64,000 nucleotides of DNA from Anaerovorax odorimutans (GTDB lineage Bacteria > Bacillota > Clostridia > Peptostreptococcales > JAAYPU01), in contig JAENZQ010000004.1 of assembly GCA_016841185.1 (NCBI GenBank), positions 62,001-126,000 of the forward strand. Reading direction: 5' to 3'. Shown in pieces: positions 16,892-31,132 of the stretch (positions are counted from its first letter, which is position 1; the number at the start of each line of letters is the position of its first letter). The notes below the pieces were generated by a model. The model had not been told where the DNA came from. It did no database searches and was given only the letters and a program-made list of their open reading frames with translations. Both the position numbers and the translations under genes were made by a program.

Positions 16892-16961
16892 TAATTTTAA
16901 ATATTATGACTTGATTTATTGATCATATAATATATAATAATATTTACAATACAATAATAAT

Positions 16962-17040
16962 GGGAGCTGATGTTTTCGGCTGAGAGGGGATAAGTGAATC
17001 CCGACCGAGGAACCTGATCTGGATAATGCCAGCGTAGGAA
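16962..17040 (+). promoter_or_regulatory. TPP (THI-box) riboswitch aptamer
   Basis: All hallmarks of the thiamine pyrophosphate aptamer are present: a GGGAGCTGAT opening, CTGAGAGGGG, the CCCGACCGAGGAACCTGATCT turn and GGATAATGCCAGCGTAGGAA. It precedes the terminator at 17054 and the thiamine transport genes. TPP binding should favour termination and lower their expression. Confidence 0.97.
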
Positions 17041-17053
17041 AAGCTTGTTAAGA

Positions 17054-17087
17054 AACTGTTGCCTATTCTGTGCAGCAGTTTTTTTAA
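17054..17087 (+). terminator. Riboswitch-controlled terminator
   Basis: AACTGTTGC (17054-17062) pairs with GCAGCAGTT (17072-17080, one G-T pair) and is followed by seven T. It lies 14 nt after the TPP aptamer and 72 nt before the first gene. Confidence 0.88.
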
Positions 17088-17158: not shown

Positions 17159-17443
17159 ATGGTTAATGTCAGCTTACAGGTATTGCCGGCAGTACCTGAA
17201 ACCCAAATATATCCTGTTATCGATAAAGTGATCGATTTCATTCAGAAAAGTGGTGTTCGATATGAGGTCGGCCCAATGGAAACGACTATGGAAGGTGAAC
17301 TGGATAAGTTGTTAGAAATCGTAAAAGCAGCACAGGAAATATGTGTAAAAGAGGGCGCGAAACGAGTTATATCTATTGTAAAAATAGATTATAAACCGGA
17401 AGGTGTGACAATAGATGAGAAAGTGGCAAAATACCGAAAATAA
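17159..17443 (+). CDS. Thiamine-binding protein (MTH1187/YqgV family)
   Basis: 94 residues, a single ferredoxin-like domain of the MTH1187/YkoF type: 'VNVSLQVLPAVP', 'VIDKVIDFIQKSGVRYEVGPMETTMEGE' and 'VCVKEGAKRVISIVKID'-like strands. These small soluble proteins bind thiamine or its HMP moiety. AAAGGAG precedes the start. It lies directly behind the TPP riboswitch and overlaps the permease gene by 29 bp, so it is part of the thiamine uptake operon. A role in handling the imported pyrimidine or thiamine is inferred. Confidence 0.87.
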   Translation: MVNVSLQVLPAVPETQIYPVIDKVIDFIQKSGVRYEVGPMETTMEGELDKLLEIVKAAQEICVKEGAKRVISIVKIDYKPEGVTIDEKVAKYRK

Positions 17444-18185
17444 AATAGGGTCGCTAATTTTTATGATTACCGTCATTCTCATATGGGAACTGGTGATTCG
17501 TATCCATTCATTACCTAAATACATATTACCGGCGCCATCCGCGATCATAATATCATTGGTAGATTCATGGCAGATTCTGTGGGAACATACCCGGACAACG
17601 CTGCTTGAAGCGCTCAGTGGTTTTGTTGCTGCTATTATTATCGGTGTTTTTATATCCGCTGTCATGAACAGGTATAAAATTGTGAAAAATATTTTTTATC
17701 CGATCTTGGTGATTTCGCAGACTGTACCTATTATTGCCATAGCACCTCTTTTAATGATTTGGATGGGGTTTGGCATACATCCGAAGATTGTAATTGTTAT
17801 TCTCGTATGTTTTTTCCCTGTTGCGGTCAATGTTACAGAAGGTTTGGCGGTAGTGGACAGAGACCTTATTAATCTGCTGAAAGTTATGAAAGCCAGTTCT
17901 TGGCAGATATTTTTTAAAGTCCAATTACCTGCTGTTATGCCTGCATTTTTTTCAGGTGTTAAGATTGCAGCAACTTACAGTATTATGGGTGCGGTTATAT
18001 CTGAATGGATCGGTGCTAAAAGCGGTTTGGGAATCTACATGACACGAGCCATGAGCTCATTTCGTACGGAAGCTTTATTTGCAGATATCCTGATTATTGT
18101 TGTATTGAGTATAGGGCTTTTTAAACTGATTGAATGGCTGGAAAAGAAGATAATACCTTGGACAATGTTAAATAATAAGGAGTGA
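17415..18185 (+). CDS. thiX: HMP/thiamine-precursor ABC permease (ThiX-type)
   Basis: 256 residues with six membrane helices. The BPD-permease coupling loop is visible: 'EGLAVVDRDLINLLKVMKAS' and 'QLPAVMPAFFSGVKIAATYS', as in SsuC/ThiX permeases. Its ATG lies 29 bp inside the thiamine-binding protein gene. The next gene encodes a lipoprotein receptor whose ribosome site overlaps this stop codon. It forms the channel for formylaminopyrimidine or hydroxymethylpyrimidine uptake, based on the receptor family and the TPP riboswitch. Confidence 0.88.
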   Translation: MRKWQNTENKIGSLIFMITVILIWELVIRIHSLPKYILPAPSAIIISLVDSWQILWEHTRTTLLEALSGFVAAIIIGVFISAVMNRYKIVKNIFYPILVISQTVPIIAIAPLLMIWMGFGIHPKIVIVILVCFFPVAVNVTEGLAVVDRDLINLLKVMKASSWQIFFKVQLPAVMPAFFSGVKIAATYSIMGAVISEWIGAKSGLGIYMTRAMSSFRTEALFADILIIVVLSIGLFKLIEWLEKKIIPWTMLNNKE

Positions 18186-18190
18186 TTCTG

Positions 18191-19165
18191 ATGTTAAAAA
18201 AAATGGGTACTTGTTTAATGTTTTTTTTATTGATGGCATTATTCTTATCAGGGTGCACAGCATCCGATGAAAAAATCACCGTATCTCTTGATTGGGCACC
18301 GAATACCAATCATACAGGTCTTTATGCGGCAGTCGATCAAGGATACTATAAAGAGGAAGGATTGGACGTTGAAATAATACAGCCGCCGGAAGGAACAGCG
18401 GAGTCCTTAGTTGCAGCCGGCCAGGCTCAGTTTGGCGTCGGATATCAGGAAAGCGTTACTTTTGCCAGATTAGAGGATATGCCGGTGGTGTCTATTGCAT
18501 CCGTGATACAGCATAATACCTCCGGTTTTGCATCCCTTAAGAAAAAAGGAATTGAGACACCTGCTGATTTTGAAGGTAAAAGATATGGCGGATGGGGTTC
18601 TCCTGTTGAAAAAGCTACGTTAAAAGCTTTAATGGAGAAATATGATGCGGATGTGGAGCGTGTAGAGATCATTACAAGCGGTGATATGGACTTTTTTGCT
18701 GCCAGTGAGAAAGATATTGATTTTGCATGGATTTTTGAAGGATGGACCGGTATAGAAGCACGCATCAGAGGAATCGAGTTAAATTACATTGATCTCGGAC
18801 AGGAAAATGAAGCACTTGATTATTATACACCGGTGATCATTACAAATGAAAAAATTATCAATAATAATCCGGATTTAGTCAGAGCTTTTATGAAAGCAAC
18901 AGCAAAAGGGTATGAATACTCAATGGAGAATCCTGAAGCTGCAGCAGAAATACTGTTGAAAAATGCTCCTGAATTAGACAGAACACTGGTTTTTGAAAGT
19001 CAGAAATATTTGAGCGGTCAATATCAGGCGGAAGCGGAACAATGGGGCCTCCAAAAAGAAGAAGTATGGCAGAATTATACAGATTGGCTTTTTAAAAATG
19101 GTTTGATCAGCAAAAAAATAGATGTAAAAGCTGCTTTCACCAATGAGTTTTTGCCGGAAAGATAG
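18191..19165 (+). CDS. thiY: HMP-precursor-binding lipoprotein (ThiY / NMT1-THI5-like)
   Basis: 324 residues from ATG 18191, 8 nt after AAGGAG; GTG 18182 overlaps that site. The lipoprotein signal ends 'LFLSGC' (Cys22). The mature part is an NMT1/THI5-like periplasmic-binding fold: 'VSLDWAPNTNHTGLYAAVDQGYYKEEGLDVEII' and 'GQAQFGVGYQES' are diagnostic, with 'GKRYGGWGSPVE' around the ligand site. It is held on the outer membrane face and delivers a pyrimidine thiamine precursor to ThiX/ThiZ. Confidence 0.9.
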   Translation: MLKKMGTCLMFFLLMALFLSGCTASDEKITVSLDWAPNTNHTGLYAAVDQGYYKEEGLDVEIIQPPEGTAESLVAAGQAQFGVGYQESVTFARLEDMPVVSIASVIQHNTSGFASLKKKGIETPADFEGKRYGGWGSPVEKATLKALMEKYDADVERVEIITSGDMDFFAASEKDIDFAWIFEGWTGIEARIRGIELNYIDLGQENEALDYYTPVIITNEKIINNNPDLVRAFMKATAKGYEYSMENPEAAAEILLKNAPELDRTLVFESQKYLSGQYQAEAEQWGLQKEEVWQNYTDWLFKNGLISKKIDVKAAFTNEFLPER

Positions 19166-19192
19166 GGACGATCACAGTAAGATAAGGGGATA

Positions 19193-19951
19193 ATGACGAT
19201 GATACCCAAAATTCAATTGATTGATGTACAAAAAGAATTTGTGTCTCAGAATGATGTACTGAAGGTACTGGAAAGCATCAGTTTACATGTTCATCCCGGT
19301 GAATTTGTATCCATTCTTGGGCCCAGCGGATGTGGAAAGAGTACGATTTTTCATATTTTAACCGGGATTGATCAACAATCCCGGGGGCAGATAAAAATTG
19401 ACAATATCCCATTGGAAAAATGGCAGGGCAAAATGTGTTATATGCAGCAAAAAGACCTTCTGATGCCTTGGAGAACGCTTTTGAATAATGTTATATTGCC
19501 CTTGGAGATCCAAGGTGTCAGAAAAACGGATGCAGTAAAAAAAGTTAGGGAACTGCTGCCGGTTTTTGGTTTGGAAGGTTTCGAATCCGTATACCCAAAC
19601 CAGTTATCGGGCGGCATGAGACAGAGAGCAGCACTTCTTCGGACAGTTTTGACAGATAGCGAAATCATGCTTTTAGATGAGCCCTTCGGAGCTTTGGACG
19701 CCATCAACAGATCCCAAATGCAGCAGTGGTTTTTGGAAATATGGGAAAAATTCAGGCATTCTGTCCTTTTTGTTACCCATGATATTGAAGAGGCGATTTT
19801 TATGTCAGACCGGGTTTATGTCCTCAGCCAAAGGCCTGCAAGGGTAGCGAAGGAAGTCCGTATTGATGTTCAAAGACCTCGAAAGAAGGAATTTTTGGTT
19901 TTGTCGGAATTTTTGGAATACAAAAAAGAACTGGTAAATGCTTTAAAATAA
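19193..19951 (+). CDS. thiZ: Thiamine-precursor ABC ATPase (ThiZ-type)
   Basis: 252 residues. Walker A 'GPSGCGKSTIFHIL', Q-loop 'MQQKDLLMPWRTLLNNV', signature 'LSGGMRQRAALLRTVL', Walker B 'IMLLDEPFGALDAI' and the switch histidine in 'FVTHDIEEAIF' are all present. The protein resembles SsuB/TauB-type importer ATPases. It is third in the ThiX-ThiY-ThiZ set downstream of the TPP riboswitch and drives uptake. AAGGGG precedes ATG 19193. Confidence 0.9.
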   Translation: MTMIPKIQLIDVQKEFVSQNDVLKVLESISLHVHPGEFVSILGPSGCGKSTIFHILTGIDQQSRGQIKIDNIPLEKWQGKMCYMQQKDLLMPWRTLLNNVILPLEIQGVRKTDAVKKVRELLPVFGLEGFESVYPNQLSGGMRQRAALLRTVLTDSEIMLLDEPFGALDAINRSQMQQWFLEIWEKFRHSVLFVTHDIEEAIFMSDRVYVLSQRPARVAKEVRIDVQRPRKKEFLVLSEFLEYKKELVNALK

Positions 19952-22610: not shown

Positions 22611-22659
22611 GTGTTGTAATAAAAATTCAGGCGTGGTATACTTTAGATAATTGAACAAC

Positions 22660-22828
22660 ATATCATGTTTAAGGGAAAAGGGTGAAAGGCCTTTGCTGTA
22701 GTCGCAGCTGTAACCGGTGACGAGGATCATTGATACCACTGTCCGGTATTCAACTATGTTATAGTTGAATACCGATGGGAAGGTTTGATTCAAGGATGAC
22801 CCGGAAGCCAGAAGACCTGTCATGATAT
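22660..22828 (+). promoter_or_regulatory. Cobalamin (B12) riboswitch
   Basis: P1 closes ATATCATG (22660-22667) with CATGATAT (22821-22828). Inside are the family blocks: GGGTGAAAGGC..., GCTGTAACCGGTGACGAGG, CCACTG, ATGGGAAGG and the B12 box GGAAGCCAGAAGACCTGTC. One peripheral arm is a long hairpin (CGGTATTCAACTAT / ATAGTTGAATACCG). Adenosylcobalamin should repress the genes downstream through the terminator at 22936. Confidence 0.96.
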
Positions 22829-22935
22829 TCTTCAAATCATTTCCGACATAGAGAGATTGAAGAGATAGCAAAGAATGACATGCTCCGGTTTGGCTGGCGT
22901 ATGTTTGAATCTTTAGTGTATCAATGGAAATCAAC

Positions 22936-22964
22936 CCTCTCTATAAAGAAATAGAGAGGTTTTT
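22936..22964 (+). terminator. Terminator in the B12 riboswitch expression platform
   Basis: CCTCTCTAT (22936-22944) and ATAGAGAGG (22951-22959) enclose 6 nt and are followed by TTTTT. The stem shares sequence (ACATAGAGAG at 22847) that could form an alternative pairing. Confidence 0.88.
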
Positions 22965-22981
22965 ATTTTAAGGTGATTGCA

Positions 22982-23917
22982 TTGAAGAAATTATTTATCG
23001 TACTGGTATTGATAATGAGCCTGTTAAATGCAGCAGGGTGTCAGAACAACAATAATAGTACTATTGGCCGGGCAGAAATAATTGTATCAAGAAATTTTGG
23101 AAAGGAAATCATTTCAGAGAATAATTTTGAAGTACCGGATGGTGCAGTGCTTTTAGACATAATGGAAGATAATTTTCAGGTGGAAACGGCTTATGGCGGT
23201 TCCTTTATCAATAGTATAGACGGGTTGCAATCTGGATTTACTGCAAAGAAAAACGGTGAAAAGCTGGATTGGTTTTTTTATGTCAATGGTATTTTGTCAC
23301 AGATTGGTTCAGGAGATTATGAAATGAAACCGGATGATTGCATTATATGGGATTATCATGATTGGGATACATCTTTGCATATATCCAGTATTGTAGGTGC
23401 ATTTCCTGACAATTTTACAAAAGGTTACAACGGTCCGTTGGGCTTAAACATTATGTATACAGATGGATATGAGAACCAGGGGGAAACTCTAAGAGATTAT
23501 TTAACCGGAATCGGTCTGTCTGATATTGAACTTACAAAGGTAAATGATGCGACTATTAGAGAAGGTAAAGACAATGTCATTGTTATAGGAGCCTGGGATG
23601 CTGCTTCAAAATATGAATATCTGAAGGAAATATACGGTCATAGATTTCAGACAGGTCTTTTTTTTGAAATAGATCAAGATATAAAAGCGCTTGATTTTAA
23701 GGGAGATATTTCTGCAACTTATGAAAAGGGAGCAGTCATTGCCTCCACGCTTAACGGATATGATGTGATGTCTACCATTTGGCTGATTACCGGAAACAGC
23801 AAAGAATACATAGAAAAAAGTGTAAAACTGCTGTGTGAGGACCCGGATCGGATAAAGGGAAGATTTTCGGTTTTAATAACCGGCAATCAAGTAATAGACC
23901 TGCCATTGGATCAATAA
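22982..23917 (+). CDS. Cobalamin-linked lipoprotein with DUF4430 (transcobalamin C-terminal-like) domain
   Basis: 311 residues if TTG 22982 is used (AAGG 6-10 nt before); GTG 22973 is the alternative. The lipoprotein signal ends 'LLNAAGC' (Cys20). Residues about 32-135 form a DUF4430 domain: 'PDGAVLLDIMEDNF', 'FINSIDGLQ', 'DWFFYVNGIL' and 'MKPDDCIIWDYHDW'. In animals this fold is the C-terminal B12-binding domain of intrinsic factor and transcobalamin. Residues about 140-311 are an alpha/beta region I do not recognise. It is the first gene behind the B12 riboswitch and 13 nt before the ECF T component, so it probably receives cobalamin on the outer membrane face. Confidence 0.85.
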   Translation: MKKLFIVLVLIMSLLNAAGCQNNNNSTIGRAEIIVSRNFGKEIISENNFEVPDGAVLLDIMEDNFQVETAYGGSFINSIDGLQSGFTAKKNGEKLDWFFYVNGILSQIGSGDYEMKPDDCIIWDYHDWDTSLHISSIVGAFPDNFTKGYNGPLGLNIMYTDGYENQGETLRDYLTGIGLSDIELTKVNDATIREGKDNVIVIGAWDAASKYEYLKEIYGHRFQTGLFFEIDQDIKALDFKGDISATYEKGAVIASTLNGYDVMSTIWLITGNSKEYIEKSVKLLCEDPDRIKGRFSVLITGNQVIDLPLDQ

Positions 23918-23930
23918 GAGGTAAATAATA

Positions 23931-24812
23931 ATGAGATTTCATCCAATAACCATGCTTTCTTTTTTTTCAATGCTTTTTATCATGATATTGATATATAGCA
24001 ATCCTGCATATATCTTTTCTTTACTGATATTCTTAATAGTTCTTATAATTATCGTAAAAGGAGAAAAGAAGCTTAAGGCAATGATCAGGTACGGCATTTA
24101 TAATGTTCTTATTATTACTGCCATTAATCCCCTTTTATCAAGAGAGGGGCAGGCAGTGATTTTTCAAAGTGGCAGAATGCCGGTGATTGGGAGAATAAAA
24201 ATCACTGCTGAAGCTTTAGCCTATGGTGCAAACATGGGACTAAAACTGACCTGCTTCATATTAATTTTTGTCATATTTAGTATGATGACCAATAAGGATG
24301 ACACCTTTAGCTTTTTTTCAAAAACTGTCCATAAGTTGACCATCACCTTCTCAATGTCGTCAAATATTATTCATCGATTGAAAATAGAAGCTATACGGGT
24401 AAAAGAAGTGATGGAAATGAGAGGGGTCAATTTTTCTGAAAAAAAACTTAGAAAACGGATCAGAGCCTATTATCCTTTGCTTAAAGTCATTTTTATTTCA
24501 GCGTTGGAGGGTTCTGTTGACAGGGCGGAGGCTCTTTACTCAAGAGGGTATGGACAATATAAAAGGACCAGTTATACCTGTATGAATATGTCTTTTTCAG
24601 ATTATATATTTCAAATTATTTCTTTAATGCTTCTGGTTTTTTTTCTGACAGGTATTGTGAACGGTGTGGGTGAATATCAATTCTATCCGTATTTTCAGAA
24701 GCTTTATACTTCTGATTTTATCTGGTTGACGGTATTGGATTTTATATTGATATTGACACTGTTCTATGTTTGGGGGTGTAAGCGTTGGAAATTTTTAAAA
24801 TACAGGATTTAA
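23931..24812 (+). CDS. ecfT: ECF transporter transmembrane T component (EcfT/CbiQ family)
   Basis: 293 residues with about five to six membrane helices. The two coupling-helix motifs that grip the ATPases are visible: 'VMEMRGVNF' and 'RAEALYSRGYGQ', each with the Ala/Met-x-Arg-Gly core. The protein links the substrate-binding S component to the ATPases. It lies 13 nt after the DUF4430 lipoprotein gene and its last 28 bases overlap the ATPase gene. A dedicated T component beside its own S component makes this a group I (single-substrate) ECF system. Confidence 0.9.
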   Translation: MRFHPITMLSFFSMLFIMILIYSNPAYIFSLLIFLIVLIIIVKGEKKLKAMIRYGIYNVLIITAINPLLSREGQAVIFQSGRMPVIGRIKITAEALAYGANMGLKLTCFILIFVIFSMMTNKDDTFSFFSKTVHKLTITFSMSSNIIHRLKIEAIRVKEVMEMRGVNFSEKKLRKRIRAYYPLLKVIFISALEGSVDRAEALYSRGYGQYKRTSYTCMNMSFSDYIFQIISLMLLVFFLTGIVNGVGEYQFYPYFQKLYTSDFIWLTVLDFILILTLFYVWGCKRWKFLKYRI

Positions 24813-26353
24813 GCTATTATTACCCGGAAAACAGAGAGGCTGCACTGAAAGATATAAATTTGTCTGTCGAAAATGGAGAATTTATTTTGCTTTTGGGTGA
24901 ATCAGGTTCCGGAAAGTCCACGATAGGAAGAATTTTCAACGGAATCGTTCCTGAATTTTACGGCGGAACCCTCTATGGAGAGATTAAAGGGGATATTGGG
25001 ACAGTAGGTATGGTATTTCAGGATCCGGAAAAACAATTGATTATGGATAAGGTTGAAAGGGAAATTGCCTTTGGTCTTGAAAACTTAGGAACAGATTACT
25101 CAATTATGAGAAAGCGGGTTATGGAAACTCTGAGCTTTCTTAATATAGAAGGAATAAAAAATCAGAATACATATGAACTCTCAAACGGGCAGAAGCAAAA
25201 GGTCGCCATAGGTACCGCACTGGCCATGGGACATATGTTTATCGTTTTTGATGAGCCCACTTCACAGCTTGACCCTGCTGCTGCAGATGAGATTATTCAT
25301 GTAATAGAACGATTAAATAAAGAACTGGGATACACCATTATTTTGATCGAACAAAGAATAGACCGGTGCTTTCATTTGGCTGATAGAGTTCTGTTCATGG
25401 AAAGCGGAAAGGTATCTTTTGACGGAACGCCGGAAGGATTTACTTTATGGAGCCGAAAAAATAAATCCAGTTTTTTGCCTTCAGTTTCAGGCTTTTTTGC
25501 TCTTTCCGGTTATGAAAGCCTTCCCGGTACCATTAAAGAAGGCCGAAGAAGGCTTCTGGAAACAACCGGAATTAAGAGCATATCTGAAAGGAAAGAGAAT
25601 TCACTTATACAGGGCTCAAATCCTATTGCAGTGAAATTAGAAAAAGTCTATTTCGAATACGGCAACGGCATACTGGCTCTCAATAATATGGATATGAGAG
25701 TAGAAAAGAATGAGATAGTAGGTGTGATAGGCCCCAACGGAAGTGGGAAAACGACTTTACTGAAAATAATCAGCGGTTTGCTTAAACCTTCCTCGGGAAA
25801 CGTCGAAAGGGAAGAGAAAATCGGTTATTTATCTCAAAATCCTAATGATTATCTGTTTAACGATTCTGTTTATGAAGAACTGAAATTTACTTTGGATATA
25901 AACAAAATAAAAGCATATGAGAGAATAGAAAGGGTTTTAGAGGATTTAAACCTGATTCATCTTAAAGATAAAAACCCCAGAGATTTAAGCGGAGGGGAAA
26001 AACAGAGAGTGGCTTTGGCTTCGATTCTGGTTTCACAGCCTGGCTTGATCCTTTTAGATGAGCCTACCAGAGGGTTAGACAGAATATTAAAGGATGCTTT
26101 GGGAAAAGTACTCAGTAAACTTTTAAAAGAAAAAAAGACCATTATAATAGTAACCCATGATATAGAATTTGTTGCAAAGTATTGTACAAAAACATGTCTG
26201 GTTTATGAGGGATCCGTTGTAGAAATGGCGGATACGTATCAGGTCTTGACTTCAGGTCTTTACTATACAACACAAATGAAGAAATTGTTTCATGGACTTG
26301 CAGATGGTATTTTGACCATAGAGGACGCTTTGCGAGCTAGCGGTAAGATTTAA
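24785..26353 (+). CDS. ECF transporter ATPase, two ABC domains fused (EcfA-EcfA')
   Basis: 522 residues from TTG 24785 (GGGGGTG upstream). Two complete ABC domains occur in tandem. The first has 'GESGSGKSTIGRIFNG', Q-loop 'MVFQDPEKQLI', 'LSNGQKQKVAIGTALA' and 'FIVFDEPTSQLDP'. The second has 'GPNGSGKTTLLKIISG', 'YLSQNPNDYLF', 'LSGGEKQRVALASIL' and 'LILLDEPTRGLDR'. Most ECF transporters use two separate ATPases; here one chain supplies both sites. The 28-bp overlap with ecfT suggests coupled translation. It drives uptake of the substrate bound by the downstream S component. Confidence 0.92.
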   Translation: MEIFKIQDLSYYYPENREAALKDINLSVENGEFILLLGESGSGKSTIGRIFNGIVPEFYGGTLYGEIKGDIGTVGMVFQDPEKQLIMDKVEREIAFGLENLGTDYSIMRKRVMETLSFLNIEGIKNQNTYELSNGQKQKVAIGTALAMGHMFIVFDEPTSQLDPAAADEIIHVIERLNKELGYTIILIEQRIDRCFHLADRVLFMESGKVSFDGTPEGFTLWSRKNKSSFLPSVSGFFALSGYESLPGTIKEGRRRLLETTGIKSISERKENSLIQGSNPIAVKLEKVYFEYGNGILALNNMDMRVEKNEIVGVIGPNGSGKTTLLKIISGLLKPSSGNVEREEKIGYLSQNPNDYLFNDSVYEELKFTLDINKIKAYERIERVLEDLNLIHLKDKNPRDLSGGEKQRVALASILVSQPGLILLDEPTRGLDRILKDALGKVLSKLLKEKKTIIIVTHDIEFVAKYCTKTCLVYEGSVVEMADTYQVLTSGLYYTTQMKKLFHGLADGILTIEDALRASGKI

Positions 26354-26370
26354 GATTGAAAGATGATTTT

Positions 26371-26389
26371 GACAGCCGCAAGGGCTGTC
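26371..26389. repeat. GC-rich hairpin between ATPase and S-component genes
   Basis: GACAGCC (26371-26377) and GGCTGTC (26383-26389) with loop GCAAG, followed by CCTACAAC. No T tract follows, so transcription should continue. Short GGGACAGCC-type hairpins occur as dispersed repeats in many genomes. Confidence 0.55.
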
Positions 26390-26422
26390 CCTACAACTTG
26401 CACCTATTGGGAGGAAGCACCA

Positions 26423-27055
26423 ATGAATTATGGGGTTTTGTCGGCTATCATATTGATCATTTCTTTATTAGGGATTTTTATTTCCTACGAGAGAAAAAAA
26501 ACAACACTGAAGGAAATTTCCTTGATTGCAACTCTTTCTGCTTTGGCGGGTATCGGTCGGGTCCCCTTTGCAGCCTTTCCTAATGTGCAGCCGACAACAT
26601 TTTTGATCATGGTATCCGGATATGTTCTGGGGCCGGGGCACGGATTTGTAGTGGGTGCTTTTGCAACCTTGGTATCCAACACATTTCTCGGGCATGGTCC
26701 ATGGGAACCGTGGCAGATGCTGGCCTGGGGCCTGGTTGGATTCAGTTCGGGTTTCATCGGAAAGATAAGAAAAACACCTTCCCGGTTATTTTTAAGCCTT
26801 TTTGCTTTTTTCTGGGGATTTGCATTCGACTATATAATGAATTTATGGCATTGGCTGTTTTTTATATATCCTTTAAATCTGAAAAGCTTTATTGCTATAA
26901 ATGCAGCATCATTTTATCTGGATATTATGCATGCTGCAGGCAATTTCATTTTCACATTCTTTTTTGGAAAAGACTTTATATTGATTTTAAACCGGTTTAA
27001 AAAAAGATTATCATATACACAAATTAACAACGGCCAATATGTAAAAAATAACTGA
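26423..27055 (+). CDS. ECF transporter S component, probably cobalamin-specific
   Basis: 210 residues from ATG 26423, 7 nt after GGGAGG; upstream in-frame ATG 26363 has no site. About six membrane helices. The start 'KEISLIATLSALAGIGRVPFA' and 'PTTFLIMVSGYVLGPGHGFVVGAFATLVSNTFLG' are typical ECF S-component blocks, including the Ala-rich helix 1 that contacts EcfT. Position within a B12-riboswitch transcript, next to its own T and A subunits, implies cobalamin or a corrin precursor as ligand. The subfamily cannot be fixed without a profile search. Confidence 0.85.
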   Translation: MNYGVLSAIILIISLLGIFISYERKKTTLKEISLIATLSALAGIGRVPFAAFPNVQPTTFLIMVSGYVLGPGHGFVVGAFATLVSNTFLGHGPWEPWQMLAWGLVGFSSGFIGKIRKTPSRLFLSLFAFFWGFAFDYIMNLWHWLFFIYPLNLKSFIAINAASFYLDIMHAAGNFIFTFFFGKDFILILNRFKKRLSYTQINNGQYVKNN

Positions 27056-27071
27056 GATAAGGGGAGAGAAT

Positions 27072-28376
27072 ATGAGAAGAGTTACGCTGTGTATTTTTGT
27101 ATTTGTATTTATGTTGTCAAATATTGCTTATGGTCAAAATCTAAAACTTACAGAAGATTATTTAAAGAAGCAGGATCTGGACCACTGGGGCTTTCTGGCA
27201 CTTTATTCCGCTGAAAACCCCATAAGCGGTGATCTCGAGAAGGTAGACTCGGAATTAACAACAGACTTTGAGGGATATCTTTTAGGGGCTTTGGTATCCG
27301 GGGAAAATGTACTAAATGTTGTAGAAAAGTTGGCGGAATGCCAATTGGAAAGCGGTAAATTTTCCGATTTTACAGACGGGACAGGTGAAGATCTGGTCAA
27401 TGCCCATATTTGGGGGATCATTTCTCTGTATGCAGCGGATTATGAAGAATATGACAAAGTATCGGCATTGAAGTGGCTCAAGGAAAATCAGAATAAGGAT
27501 GGCGGATTTCCCATATATGCAGGTATGGGTACTTCGGATCTGGATATGTCTTCGATGGCTTTGATTGCTTATGATATCCTGGGATTGGACAGGGAGGCGG
27601 ACGAAGTCAAACAGACCATTGCATACATAGAAAAAAATCTCAGCAGAAAAGAAAGCTGTGAGGCATATGCGTGGTATATTTTGGCACGGATAAAGTTAGG
27701 GTTGAGTATTGATGAGGATTTATATAATGATTTGATGAAGTTCAGACTTCAGGACGGTTCTTTTATGCATCTGGAGTCTATGAAGAAATCTAACTATATG
27801 GCAACCTGGCACGGTCTTTTAGCACTTGCGGATTATTACAGAAAATCTTCCATATTCGACAGACTGCATGATGAAGTGAATTTTGTGGATTTAGGTAATG
27901 ACCATGAGGCTTATGAAGCAATAATGGCTTTGGTCAATGAGAAAATCATATCCGGATACTCGGATAATACTTTCAGACCGGATAATTCTGTGAAAAGAGG
28001 AGAGTTTTGTAAATTTATGGTTTATGGCATGGACCTGCAGGATCAGGCATTATTGGAAAACAGTAAATTTAAGGATCTAAAAGGCCACTGGGCAAATAAG
28101 ATCGTGAATGTGGCAGTAGATAATGGATGGATCAAAGGTGTTACCGGTTATTATTTTGCACCGGAAGGAAAAATTAAAGGGTCTGAGATTGCAGCAATCC
28201 TTGTTCGAGTCAAAGGACTTGAAGACAAGGCTTCAATTATTCATGGCGACAATTGGTACGATGGATATGTACAGATTGCAGAAGAAAATGATCTATTATA
28301 CACAAACTTTCACCCTGAGGGTTATGCCTCAAGGGTCCAGTGTTCGGAAGCGGTCTATAAATTAATTAAAAATTAA
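27072..28376 (+). CDS. SLH-anchored alpha/alpha-toroid (prenyltransferase/terpenoid-cyclase-like) surface protein
   Basis: 434 residues. A signal peptide (1-21, ending 'NIAYGQ') precedes an alpha/alpha-barrel of helical repeats (about 25-265), with repeat hallmarks 'WLKENQNKDGGFPIYAGMG', 'DLDMSSMALIAYDILG' and 'LQDGSFMHLESM'. Three SLH domains complete the protein (about 270-434: 'NEKIISGYSDNTFRPD', 'HWANKIVNVAVDNGWIKG', 'YVQIAEENDLLY'). GGGGAGAGA precedes the ATG, 16 nt after the S component. The toroid is the fold of the N-terminal half of intrinsic factor and transcobalamin. A surface cobalamin-binding role is inferred from fold and operon position. Confidence 0.82.
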   Translation: MRRVTLCIFVFVFMLSNIAYGQNLKLTEDYLKKQDLDHWGFLALYSAENPISGDLEKVDSELTTDFEGYLLGALVSGENVLNVVEKLAECQLESGKFSDFTDGTGEDLVNAHIWGIISLYAADYEEYDKVSALKWLKENQNKDGGFPIYAGMGTSDLDMSSMALIAYDILGLDREADEVKQTIAYIEKNLSRKESCEAYAWYILARIKLGLSIDEDLYNDLMKFRLQDGSFMHLESMKKSNYMATWHGLLALADYYRKSSIFDRLHDEVNFVDLGNDHEAYEAIMALVNEKIISGYSDNTFRPDNSVKRGEFCKFMVYGMDLQDQALLENSKFKDLKGHWANKIVNVAVDNGWIKGVTGYYFAPEGKIKGSEIAAILVRVKGLEDKASIIHGDNWYDGYVQIAEENDLLYTNFHPEGYASRVQCSEAVYKLIKN

Positions 28377-28465
28377 TAATTAACAATGAAAATACTTCTA
28401 CTTTAAACTTGGCCTCGGAGAGAACTAATGAAGTTAATATTTAAAATTAAAAAATGGGGGGAAAT

Positions 28466-31132
28466 ATGTTTAATTTTAGAAAACTTGAAATGAAAAAACT
28501 GATAAGCTATTCTTTAATCATTCTTTTGCTGTTTTCTTTGATATCCATTTATGATATTGAAACATATGCCGAAGGAACCGATTTAGCCCGGATAGCAGTA
28601 AGCAACAATTATTTGGAATATCAAGACGGTATTGCAGTAGATAACAGTCTGGGGAATCTGACGGCGTATGATGTCTATGTCCTTGAAAAAGAAGGCGCCG
28701 ATACGAGTCTGTGGGAAAGAGAAGGGACGGACCTGAAAGCAGAGACCCTTGAATTGATCGATGAAAACAGGTCAGGTGCTGCAATCGATGCGAAAGCTCT
28801 GATCCAGACCTATCTGGCAGCGAAAGAATATGGAGAAACCGGCAGGGCGGAAAGTCTGTTGAGTAAAATACAGAATCAGCAGGATGAAAGCACAGGTATA
28901 TTTGGATTTGGAGACATTTTTATCAATATGCCTGCATATGACATGTTAGGTAAAATAGGGGACTTGCCTGAAATTGATTTGGATGCTTGTAAAACTTATG
29001 TTATGACAGAGCAAAATATGGAAGATCCGGCCGATGAAGAAGTTTACGGAGCTTGGGGCGCGCTTGGATGGATTGAAGTTTCCCCGGGTAATTGGCAGCA
29101 AACAGGGCCATGGGATCCGGATTTTATTAGCAGCATACAGGGCGTAAGGATATTACAGTATTTATATAATATTACTGCAGATAATGAAATCAATAACAGA
29201 AAAGATATTGGTTTAAACTGGCTTTTACAACAACAACAGGCAGATGGAAGCTTTGCAGTCAGTGCCTGGGATGATGCAGTTACGAATACGGCAGAGATGA
29301 TCATTACCCTGGACAAGTTGGGTATGAGGGACAGTGAGGCCTGGGATGATGCAGTGAATTATTTACAGAACCATGCTTTGAATGATGATGGAGAATTCGG
29401 AAATTACGGTGGTATCGCAAACAACACGTTGATTCTTGAAGCTTATCATCTCATAAATGAAGCACCGTTGGAGGCAGGGACTGTTATAGATATGGTGATT
29501 ACTCCTTCCTATGTAGAAATAGCTGTGGGGGATGAATACCAGTGCAGCCTGCAAGTCTACCGATTCGGTTCAGGCTTTGATGATTTAACGTCGGAGTCGG
29601 TTGAATGGTCCATTGCTTCAAATGGAAATGTAGCAAGTATTGACGATACAGGGAAAATAACTGGAAGAGCAAATGGCACGGCTATTGCTACGGCAGAATT
29701 CAGCAATATTGAAAGGCTTGTAGAAGTAACCGTCGAAGGCGGGACGAATCCGGGGGGAATTGAGGAGAAACCGGATTATATCAGGATTACTCTGTATATT
29801 TCAGGTATTGATGATGAAATCATGTTTTCCGATGTACTTAAGCTGAGAGATGAAGAAGAAGAAGGGATTACCGTTATGGATGCATTGGATACCAGCAACG
29901 TACGGTACAAATGCAGAGGGTCTTATGTTTATGAAATAGACGGATTGGAAGAAAAAGAAACAACCGCATTGTCAGGATGGAAGTATAAAGTGAACAACAG
30001 CATAAAAAACGTATCAGCAGATAATTGTTATCTGGATGATGAAGATGTCGTCATATGGTTTTATGCAGAAGGCCCTTCAGACCGCGGGCCGTCATTGAGC
30101 TCTTTGATCGAAAAAGTGAAGAGATCGGAAGAAGAGCAGGAAGAAACTGCTGATATTAATCAATCGAAAGAAGAGGATGAAAAAACGCTTTCAGATGCAA
30201 TAAACAAGCAGGGCAAAGCGATATTGGATCTGGATAAGGATTCCGACAGCAAAGCCTATTTGTCTCCTTACACACTAAAAATGTTATCGGATAAAAAAAT
30301 GCCTCTGATAATAAAAAATCAGGATATAACTGTTGAATTTGCTTCGGAATCTATTCCAAAACAGGTGCTGGATCAGGAAATAAATGATGAAAAAGCCTCT
30401 GTTCAAATAAAAGCAAATGTAATGACGGAAGAAGAAAATGACGAACTGCTGAAAAAGGCAGATCCGGAAAGAATGAAAGGTCTGTTTGATATCGGAGGCC
30501 AGCTGGTAGATTTATCTGTTCATATCATTCACACAGACGATGAAGGGAATGCGGAAGAAGAGCAGATTCATCATTTCATCGAGCCTGTAAAGATCGTTAT
30601 TCCCATACCTGAAGATTTAACCATGGAGAAATTGGAGAATATAACCGGCATTCGATACGAGAAAGACGAGAACGGAAATATCGTACCTGTTAAAATAGGA
30701 GGCAGTTATGATGCTGAGTCGGGAACCATCACTTTATATACGGACCGCTTTTCATACTATGGTGTGATGCGGGCGGAGCAATTAAGAAAAATCAGACTGC
30801 AGATCGACAGCTCTGTGGTGGCAGTGAACGGAGAAGAAAAGAATCTGGATGTACCGCCGATGATCATCAACAGCCGTACCATGGTACCTGTCCGGTTTGT
30901 TTCCGAAGCATTAGGCGCAGATGTTCAGTGGATTGCAGAAGAGCGAAAGGTGTTGATTACAACACAAAAAAGGCAAATAGAACTGATGATAGGCAAAATT
31001 CCTGAGGGATCAGATGTAGCACCTGTCATAAAAGACAGCAGAACTTTGATGCCCGTCAGATATATTTCAGAAAAAATAGATGCAAGCGTTTTATGGATTC
31101 CCTCAAGCCGATCGGTGGAAATCATTCAATAA
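28466..31132 (+). CDS. Exported intrinsic-factor-like protein: alpha/alpha-toroid, Big2, DUF4430 and CuAO-N-like domains
   Basis: 888 residues from ATG 28466 (GGGGGG just upstream; ATG 28454 is alternative). Signal peptide about 1-37 ending 'ETYAEG'. Helical toroid repeats at about 38-335 ('NWLLQQQQADGSFAVSAWDD', 'YLQNHALNDDGEFGNYGG'). A Big2 immunoglobulin-like domain at about 340-425 ('EIAVGDEYQCSLQV', 'KITGRANGTAIATA'). DUF4430 at about 435-538 ('VMDALDTSNVRY', 'GWKYKVNNSIKNVSADNCYLDDEDVVIWFY'). An unassigned region follows, then two copper-amine-oxidase-N-like units at about 775-888 ('VNSRTMVPVRFVSEALGADVQW'-like). Toroid plus DUF4430 is the domain pair of animal B12 carriers. No terminator separates it from the ECF operon. 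Confidence 0.83.
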   Translation: MFNFRKLEMKKLISYSLIILLLFSLISIYDIETYAEGTDLARIAVSNNYLEYQDGIAVDNSLGNLTAYDVYVLEKEGADTSLWEREGTDLKAETLELIDENRSGAAIDAKALIQTYLAAKEYGETGRAESLLSKIQNQQDESTGIFGFGDIFINMPAYDMLGKIGDLPEIDLDACKTYVMTEQNMEDPADEEVYGAWGALGWIEVSPGNWQQTGPWDPDFISSIQGVRILQYLYNITADNEINNRKDIGLNWLLQQQQADGSFAVSAWDDAVTNTAEMIITLDKLGMRDSEAWDDAVNYLQNHALNDDGEFGNYGGIANNTLILEAYHLINEAPLEAGTVIDMVITPSYVEIAVGDEYQCSLQVYRFGSGFDDLTSESVEWSIASNGNVASIDDTGKITGRANGTAIATAEFSNIERLVEVTVEGGTNPGGIEEKPDYIRITLYISGIDDEIMFSDVLKLRDEEEEGITVMDALDTSNVRYKCRGSYVYEIDGLEEKETTALSGWKYKVNNSIKNVSADNCYLDDEDVVIWFYAEGPSDRGPSLSSLIEKVKRSEEEQEETADINQSKEEDEKTLSDAINKQGKAILDLDKDSDSKAYLSPYTLKMLSDKKMPLIIKNQDITVEFASESIPKQVLDQEINDEKASVQIKANVMTEEENDELLKKADPERMKGLFDIGGQLVDLSVHIIHTDDEGNAEEEQIHHFIEPVKIVIPIPEDLTMEKLENITGIRYEKDENGNIVPVKIGGSYDAESGTITLYTDRFSYYGVMRAEQLRKIRLQIDSSVVAVNGEEKNLDVPPMIINSRTMVPVRFVSEALGADVQWIAEERKVLITTQKRQIELMIGKIPEGSDVAPVIKDSRTLMPVRYISEKIDASVLWIPSSRSVEIIQ

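Follow-up and report, generated by a model that had tools for sequence, protein, structure and literature searches.

Downstream of a cobalamin riboswitch in Anaerovorax odorimutans (GCA_016841185.1, contig JAENZQ010000004.1, positions 62,001 to 126,000 of the forward strand; this stretch of 64,000 nucleotides is hereafter the window), we identified six genes encoding a DUF4430 lipoprotein, an energy-coupling factor (ECF) transporter related to the cobalamin importer ECF-CbrT, and two further exported proteins with alpha/alpha-toroid domains. The locus is quite probably a cobamide-import operon that is repressed by adenosylcobalamin (AdoCbl) and includes exported corrinoid-capture proteins, in a corrinoid auxotroph. 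With less confidence, we favor the more specific view that the exported proteins belong to a class of surface B12 carriers, made by many Gram-positive bacteria, whose two domains are both homologous to those of animal transcobalamin and intrinsic factor; these carriers would feed a dedicated ECF importer and would partly be split into two chains.

A riboswitch-controlled operon with a CbrT-like ECF transporter

The aptamer (22649..22838, plus strand, as are all features of the operon) is full length and matched RF00174 over positions 1-189 with 73.9 bits (E 2.5e-16), above the gathering score of 31.5 bits, and it is the sole RF00174 match in the genome of 3.56 Mb. Directly 5′ of the first gene lies an intrinsic terminator with a 9-bp stem (22936..22959) and a T-run extending to 22969; together with the RF00174 match, it bears out the B12 riboswitch with terminator described in the initial annotation of this locus, which had been made from the sequence alone. 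In a transcript ending at 22947, before the 3′ arm of the terminator, the terminator 5′ arm (22937-22944) is captured by an antiterminator arm, AUAGAGAG (22848..22855), as seen in the minimum-energy fold of 22839-22947. The fold of a longer transcript, 22839-22985, forms the terminator, and the two structures are mutually exclusive. The leader is, by sequence and fold, a termination/antitermination platform of the standard kind that controls the gene behind it; the direction of control, repression by AdoCbl, is inferred from the riboswitch class.

The six open reading frames (ORFs) behind the riboswitch are co-directional, with successive gaps of 13, -28 (an overlap), 9, 16 and 77 bp. Their positions and Pfam domains agree with the six same-strand genes and products given in the initial annotation, and its statement that no rho-independent terminator interrupts them also holds, as intragenic terminator-like matches were weak and at chance level (8 in total vs 5.8 in shuffled sequence).

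Three of the six genes encode the ECF module. EcfT, the transmembrane coupling subunit (23931..24812; Pfam CbiQ, E 4.4e-13), carries two xRG motifs (MRG and SRG), and the next gene (24785..26353) encodes a fused EcfA-EcfA double ATPase with two ABC_tran domains (TIGR04520, 347 bits against a cut-off of 315) in which both Walker A, both Walker B and both signature motifs are intact, so that the motor looks functional. The S component (26363..27055; PF07155/PF12822) is labeled "ECF-type riboflavin transporter" by Pfam, a label we ruled out because sequence comparison with the whole PDB yielded CbrT alone: chain A of 6FNP, the ECF-CbrT structure, was the only match (E 4.2e-15). With a profile built from 18 relatives, 6FNP was recovered at E 2.5e-27, followed by 4hzu_S at E 0.0091, and no riboflavin S component was matched at E values up to 10. 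The comparison with other vitamins, which the initial annotation had regarded as decisive for its cobalamin assignment, therefore came out for cobalamin. CbrT binds cobalamin with a Kd of ~9 nM, and ECF-CbrT mediates ATP-dependent cobalamin uptake (PMC5997447). Import of cobamides by this operon is very likely.

The remainder of the genome was searched family by family for B12 metabolism. Neither CbiD, CobS nor a PduO-type adenosyltransferase was found in these searches, and the genome encodes a CobA-type adenosyltransferase, a MetH-like protein and two B12-binding radical SAM proteins, a predicted gene content that fits a corrinoid auxotroph importing B12. A BtuFCD system was also sought elsewhere in the genome. 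The one candidate, a FecCD operon, was rejected: its binding protein is nearer to IsdE/FecB, a HypB/UreG-like gene adjoins it, and it has no riboswitch. The window operon itself contains neither a BtuF of the Peripla_BP_2 type nor a FecCD permease.

Exported proteins and their structural relation to vertebrate B12 carriers

The largest of the exported proteins, encoded by the sixth gene (28454..31132), combines a toroid, a Big_2 domain, a DUF4430 domain and PF07833, as judged from Pfam, AlphaFold2 (AF2) and Foldseek. The first three had been proposed in the initial annotation and were borne out, whereas the C-terminal PF07833 domains had been overlooked. Pfam detected the toroid only through a weak match to SQHop_cyclase_N (E 0.005); the structure model brought it out clearly. 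The AF2 model of the exported region, computed from 15 sequences, reached a pLDDT of 84.3 and a pTM of 0.69, and in a Foldseek search against 350,542 PDB chains its best twelve matches were all transcobalamin, haptocorrin or intrinsic factor (E 1e-7 to 3e-6), with Ig-like domains, terpene cyclases and glycosidases ranked lower. The alignment spans ~545 columns and runs through the toroid and then the beta-domain, in the same order as in the animal carriers.

The lipoprotein encoded by the first gene (22973..23917; Pfam DUF4430, E 3.7e-16) has a beta-type domain resembling that of transcobalamin and lacks a toroid. Its translation likely starts at the TTG at 22982, behind AAGGTG, and it carries a lipobox-like AAGC; a simple lipobox pattern is recognizable in most, though not all, of its relatives. 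The AF2 model, from a 36-sequence alignment, has a pLDDT of 92.7 and a pTM of 0.90. Foldseek returned 2v3n, transcobalamin with cobalamin, as its best PDB match, along with haptocorrin, intrinsic factor and the isolated transcobalamin beta-domain, both apo (5no0) and in 5np4, which according to its PDB title has cyanocobalamin bound to the beta-domain alone. As a separate observation, the conserved C-terminal domain of the lipoprotein resembles part of BcsB, a cellulose synthase subunit, by Foldseek.

The fifth gene (27072..28376) encodes an exported alpha/alpha-toroid protein with an SLH wall anchor (Pfam Prenyltrans and SLH), which corresponds to the toroid alone; both intrinsic-factor domains in one chain occur only in the large protein. 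The initial annotation had described three intrinsic-factor-like proteins and proposed a structural comparison with transcobalamin. In that comparison, the models of the large protein and the lipoprotein both gave top matches from the transcobalamin group; the description holds for the large protein, with its two domains, and for the lipoprotein and the SLH protein it overstates the likeness, as each has one domain.

Attempts to establish the relation from sequence alone were unsuccessful: phmmer searches and profiles of the lipoprotein, the large protein and the toroid protein failed to reach transcobalamin. A profile of the DUF4430 domain searched against the PDB gave haptocorrin as its second match, a weak one (E 0.012) at the limit of sequence detection. 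Because this link is weak, we relied on structure for the relation to transcobalamin. Databases already label DUF4430 as transcobalamin-like, and the domain resemblance in itself may not be new. The domain has been placed at the C-terminus of TCN proteins, the vertebrate B12 binders (PMC4350170).

Among orthologues of the large protein, DUF4430 was present in 24 of 25, SLH in 21 and PF07833 in 4; the corresponding figures for the toroid protein were 31 of 31 for the toroid, 22 for SLH and 4 for PF07833. These counts suggest that PF07833 (Cu_amine_oxidN1) and SLH substitute for each other, and in the window's large protein PF07833 would probably serve surface attachment.

Conservation of the operon in other genomes

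All six genes occur in identical order behind an RF00174 match in a Clostridia bacterium (L003), 'Lutibacter' sp. B2 (L004) and Marinisporobacter sp. (L005). A relative of the lipoprotein is encoded in 56 of 398 sampled genomes of the phylum. We examined 35 loci, comprising these three and 32 survey loci; the lipoprotein, EcfT and EcfAA stood together in 33 of them, and all six parts were present in about 30. Among loci with all six parts, the usual order is large protein, lipoprotein, EcfT, EcfAA, toroid protein and S component. The genomes with the operon, including the one studied here, fall under 21 family labels. Of the 26 survey operons that could be assessed, 24 have a cobalamin riboswitch no more than ~360 bp ahead of their first gene, and in the other two it lies 0.9 and 3.5 kb upstream; two of the riboswitch-to-gene distances were slightly negative, the ORF start having been called too early. 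With few riboswitches per 2-4 Mb genome, almost none would be expected at such proximity by chance. The survey supports the co-occurrence of riboswitch, DUF4430 and ECF genes, which the initial annotation had named as a check of its proposal.

The association also extends to the S component in particular. Of 123 loci where a CbrT-like S component matched strongly, at least 91 have a DUF4430 domain within 15 kb; the genome-level odds ratio for their co-occurrence is at least 78, uncorrected for kinship among genomes. A minimal operon (L076:8095-10135) consists of a cobalamin riboswitch, a small DUF4430 lipoprotein, a CbrT-like S component (6FNP, E 4.4e-20) and a PduO-type cobalamin adenosyltransferase, which ties DUF4430 to B12 in a separate operon setting.

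Several other arrangements were observed. In L054:5112-7325, the S component and the toroid protein form a single reading frame of 737 aa, a natural fusion linking both, and in L068:4370-6857 a toroid protein is flanked by two CbrT-like S components, possibly for different cobamides. Small DUF4430 proteins overlap or abut a CbrT-like S component in clusters with a PYC_OADA carboxylase-type gene (L074:7534-8411, L077:5481-6382 and L079:7441-8369). In L038:5132-10883 and L039:5324-11135, three conserved genes of ~690, 248 and 524-546 aa without a Pfam match stand behind a longer DUF4430 lipoprotein paralogue (461-467 aa); in the L039 genome, the ORF of this paralogue has a cobalamin riboswitch ~325 bp upstream. 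The set may represent a further B12-regulated system, for transport or at the surface, that lacks ECF genes.

Proposed mechanism, alternatives and relation to known systems

We propose that at low intracellular AdoCbl the leader would form the antiterminator and the six genes would be transcribed. The large protein, with its N-terminal toroid and C-terminal DUF4430, and the SLH toroid protein would then capture scarce corrinoid at the cell wall, presumably much as transcobalamin and intrinsic factor do, with the ligand held between two domains, as their fold suggests. The captured corrinoid would be handed to the membrane-tethered DUF4430 lipoprotein, which would load the CbrT-like S component, and by homology to ECF-CbrT the dedicated EcfT/EcfAA motor would power ATP-dependent uptake. 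In a plausible variant, the toroid-only and DUF4430-only proteins would jointly constitute a split, two-chain intrinsic factor. At least one of the exported proteins likely binds corrinoid; for the order of the hand-off, from surface proteins to lipoprotein to S component, the chances appear about even.

Several observations weigh against this proposal. The superposition of the large protein on transcobalamin is loose (rmsd ~10 Å, TM 0.4-0.5), owing to the Big_2 insertion and to uncertain relative placement of the domains, and since Big_2 intervenes between toroid and DUF4430, a B12 pocket there is only hypothetical. Neither the toroid profile nor that of the entire lipoprotein reached transcobalamin. 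Toroids and DUF4430 domains have other uses too, and the small DUF4430-S pairs in carboxylase clusters lack a cobalamin riboswitch. The characterized ECF-CbrT, moreover, functions without exported DUF4430 or toroid proteins (PMC5997447).

In one alternative, ECF-CbrT imports B12 and the surface proteins bind no free corrinoid, having instead a neighboring role: they might adhere to proteins or polymers that carry B12, strip B12 from them, or organize the cell wall near the transporter. Glycoside hydrolases, lyases and cyclases account for many of the alpha/alpha toroids in the PDB and do appear lower in the Foldseek results for the large protein, and SLH, Big_2 and PF07833 are surface modules of a generic kind. 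However, transcobalamin, haptocorrin and intrinsic factor outranked every other toroid in that search, the DUF4430 lipoprotein is kept even in the minimal operon of L076, and the beta-domain of transcobalamin alone was, by the title of 5np4, crystallized with cyanocobalamin; we therefore regard this alternative as unlikely. It is more improbable still that the operon serves the uptake of cobinamide or some other incomplete precursor and not of complete cobamides. The characterized ECF-CbrT does carry cobinamide besides cobalamin (PMC5997447), but a genome without CobS and CbiD could not complete cobinamide by the known route, and its adenosyltransferase suits import of complete corrinoids.

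Least probable, and in our judgment very remote, is an importer of cobalt or another vitamin that merely stands under a cobalamin riboswitch. Such a reading could draw on the Pfam names of the S component and of EcfT ("Cobalt transport protein") and on the CbiMNQO cobalt importer of Clostridioides difficile, which is under a cobalamin riboswitch (PMC11477304). Against it stand the wide separation between CbrT and the next chain in the S-component profile search, the unmatched riboflavin S components and the lack of CbiM and CbiN in the operon; in addition, without CbiD there would be no corrin ring to metallate.

A corrinoid importer with dedicated surface capture, which we prefer, shares features with several known systems. 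In transcobalamin, haptocorrin and intrinsic factor of vertebrates (2bb5, 4kki and 2pmv), a DUF4430-type beta-domain likewise comes after an N-terminal alpha/alpha toroid. These carriers are soluble and receptor-bound, whereas the window's proteins are bacterial and attached to wall or membrane, the large one with a Big_2 insert and the other two with one domain each. ECF-CbrT of Lactobacillus delbrueckii (6FNP, PMC5997447) has the same composition of a CbrT-family S component, EcfT and two EcfA domains and a similar association with B12 genes, but its module serves about eight S components, whereas the window's is dedicated and encoded alongside, with fused ATPases and added DUF4430 and toroid proteins. 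BtuG and BtuH of Bacteroidetes (PMC6143338, PMC8941943) are also surface-exposed, B12-capturing accessories of a transporter under a cobalamin riboswitch. BtuG, however, is a beta-propeller that partners outer-membrane BtuB, and the AF2/Foldseek analysis of the window's exported proteins, part of a Gram-positive-type operon with ECF genes, revealed DUF4430 beta-domain and alpha/alpha-toroid folds and neither a beta-propeller nor a BtuH fold. BtuFCD, too, is an ABC-type importer of B12 that works with a binding protein outside the membrane, but the fold of the window's lipoprotein differs from that of BtuF, and the FecCD permease has no counterpart in the operon.

ECF-CbrT and surface capture of B12 by BtuG/BtuH are thus each known separately. 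Their combination here, a CbrT-type ECF transporter with exported proteins resembling transcobalamin and intrinsic factor, was not found in the literature searched. Nor did that literature describe B12 binding by bacterial DUF4430 or toroid proteins, although subscription papers (e.g., Rodionov 2009 on ECF transporters) may note some association; the closest remark is that in Eubacterium siraeum a btuH homologue adjoins an ECF-like cobamide transporter (PMC8941943). For the capture of scarce cobamides by Gram-positive bacteria, a largely open problem, this widespread B12-regulated module offers a testable candidate. If the proposal is true, DUF4430 would gain a function, some ECF transporters would be served by dedicated capture proteins outside the cell, and the architecture of animal B12 carriers would have a bacterial counterpart or origin, with a bearing on how those carriers arose.

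Two features lie outside the six genes. A PAP2 gene begins 92 bp 3′ of the sixth gene, with no terminator detected in that interval. Further upstream in the window, an ordinary thiamine pyrophosphate (TPP) riboswitch (16950-17059) precedes genes for an apparent thiamine-precursor ABC transporter (17415-19951).

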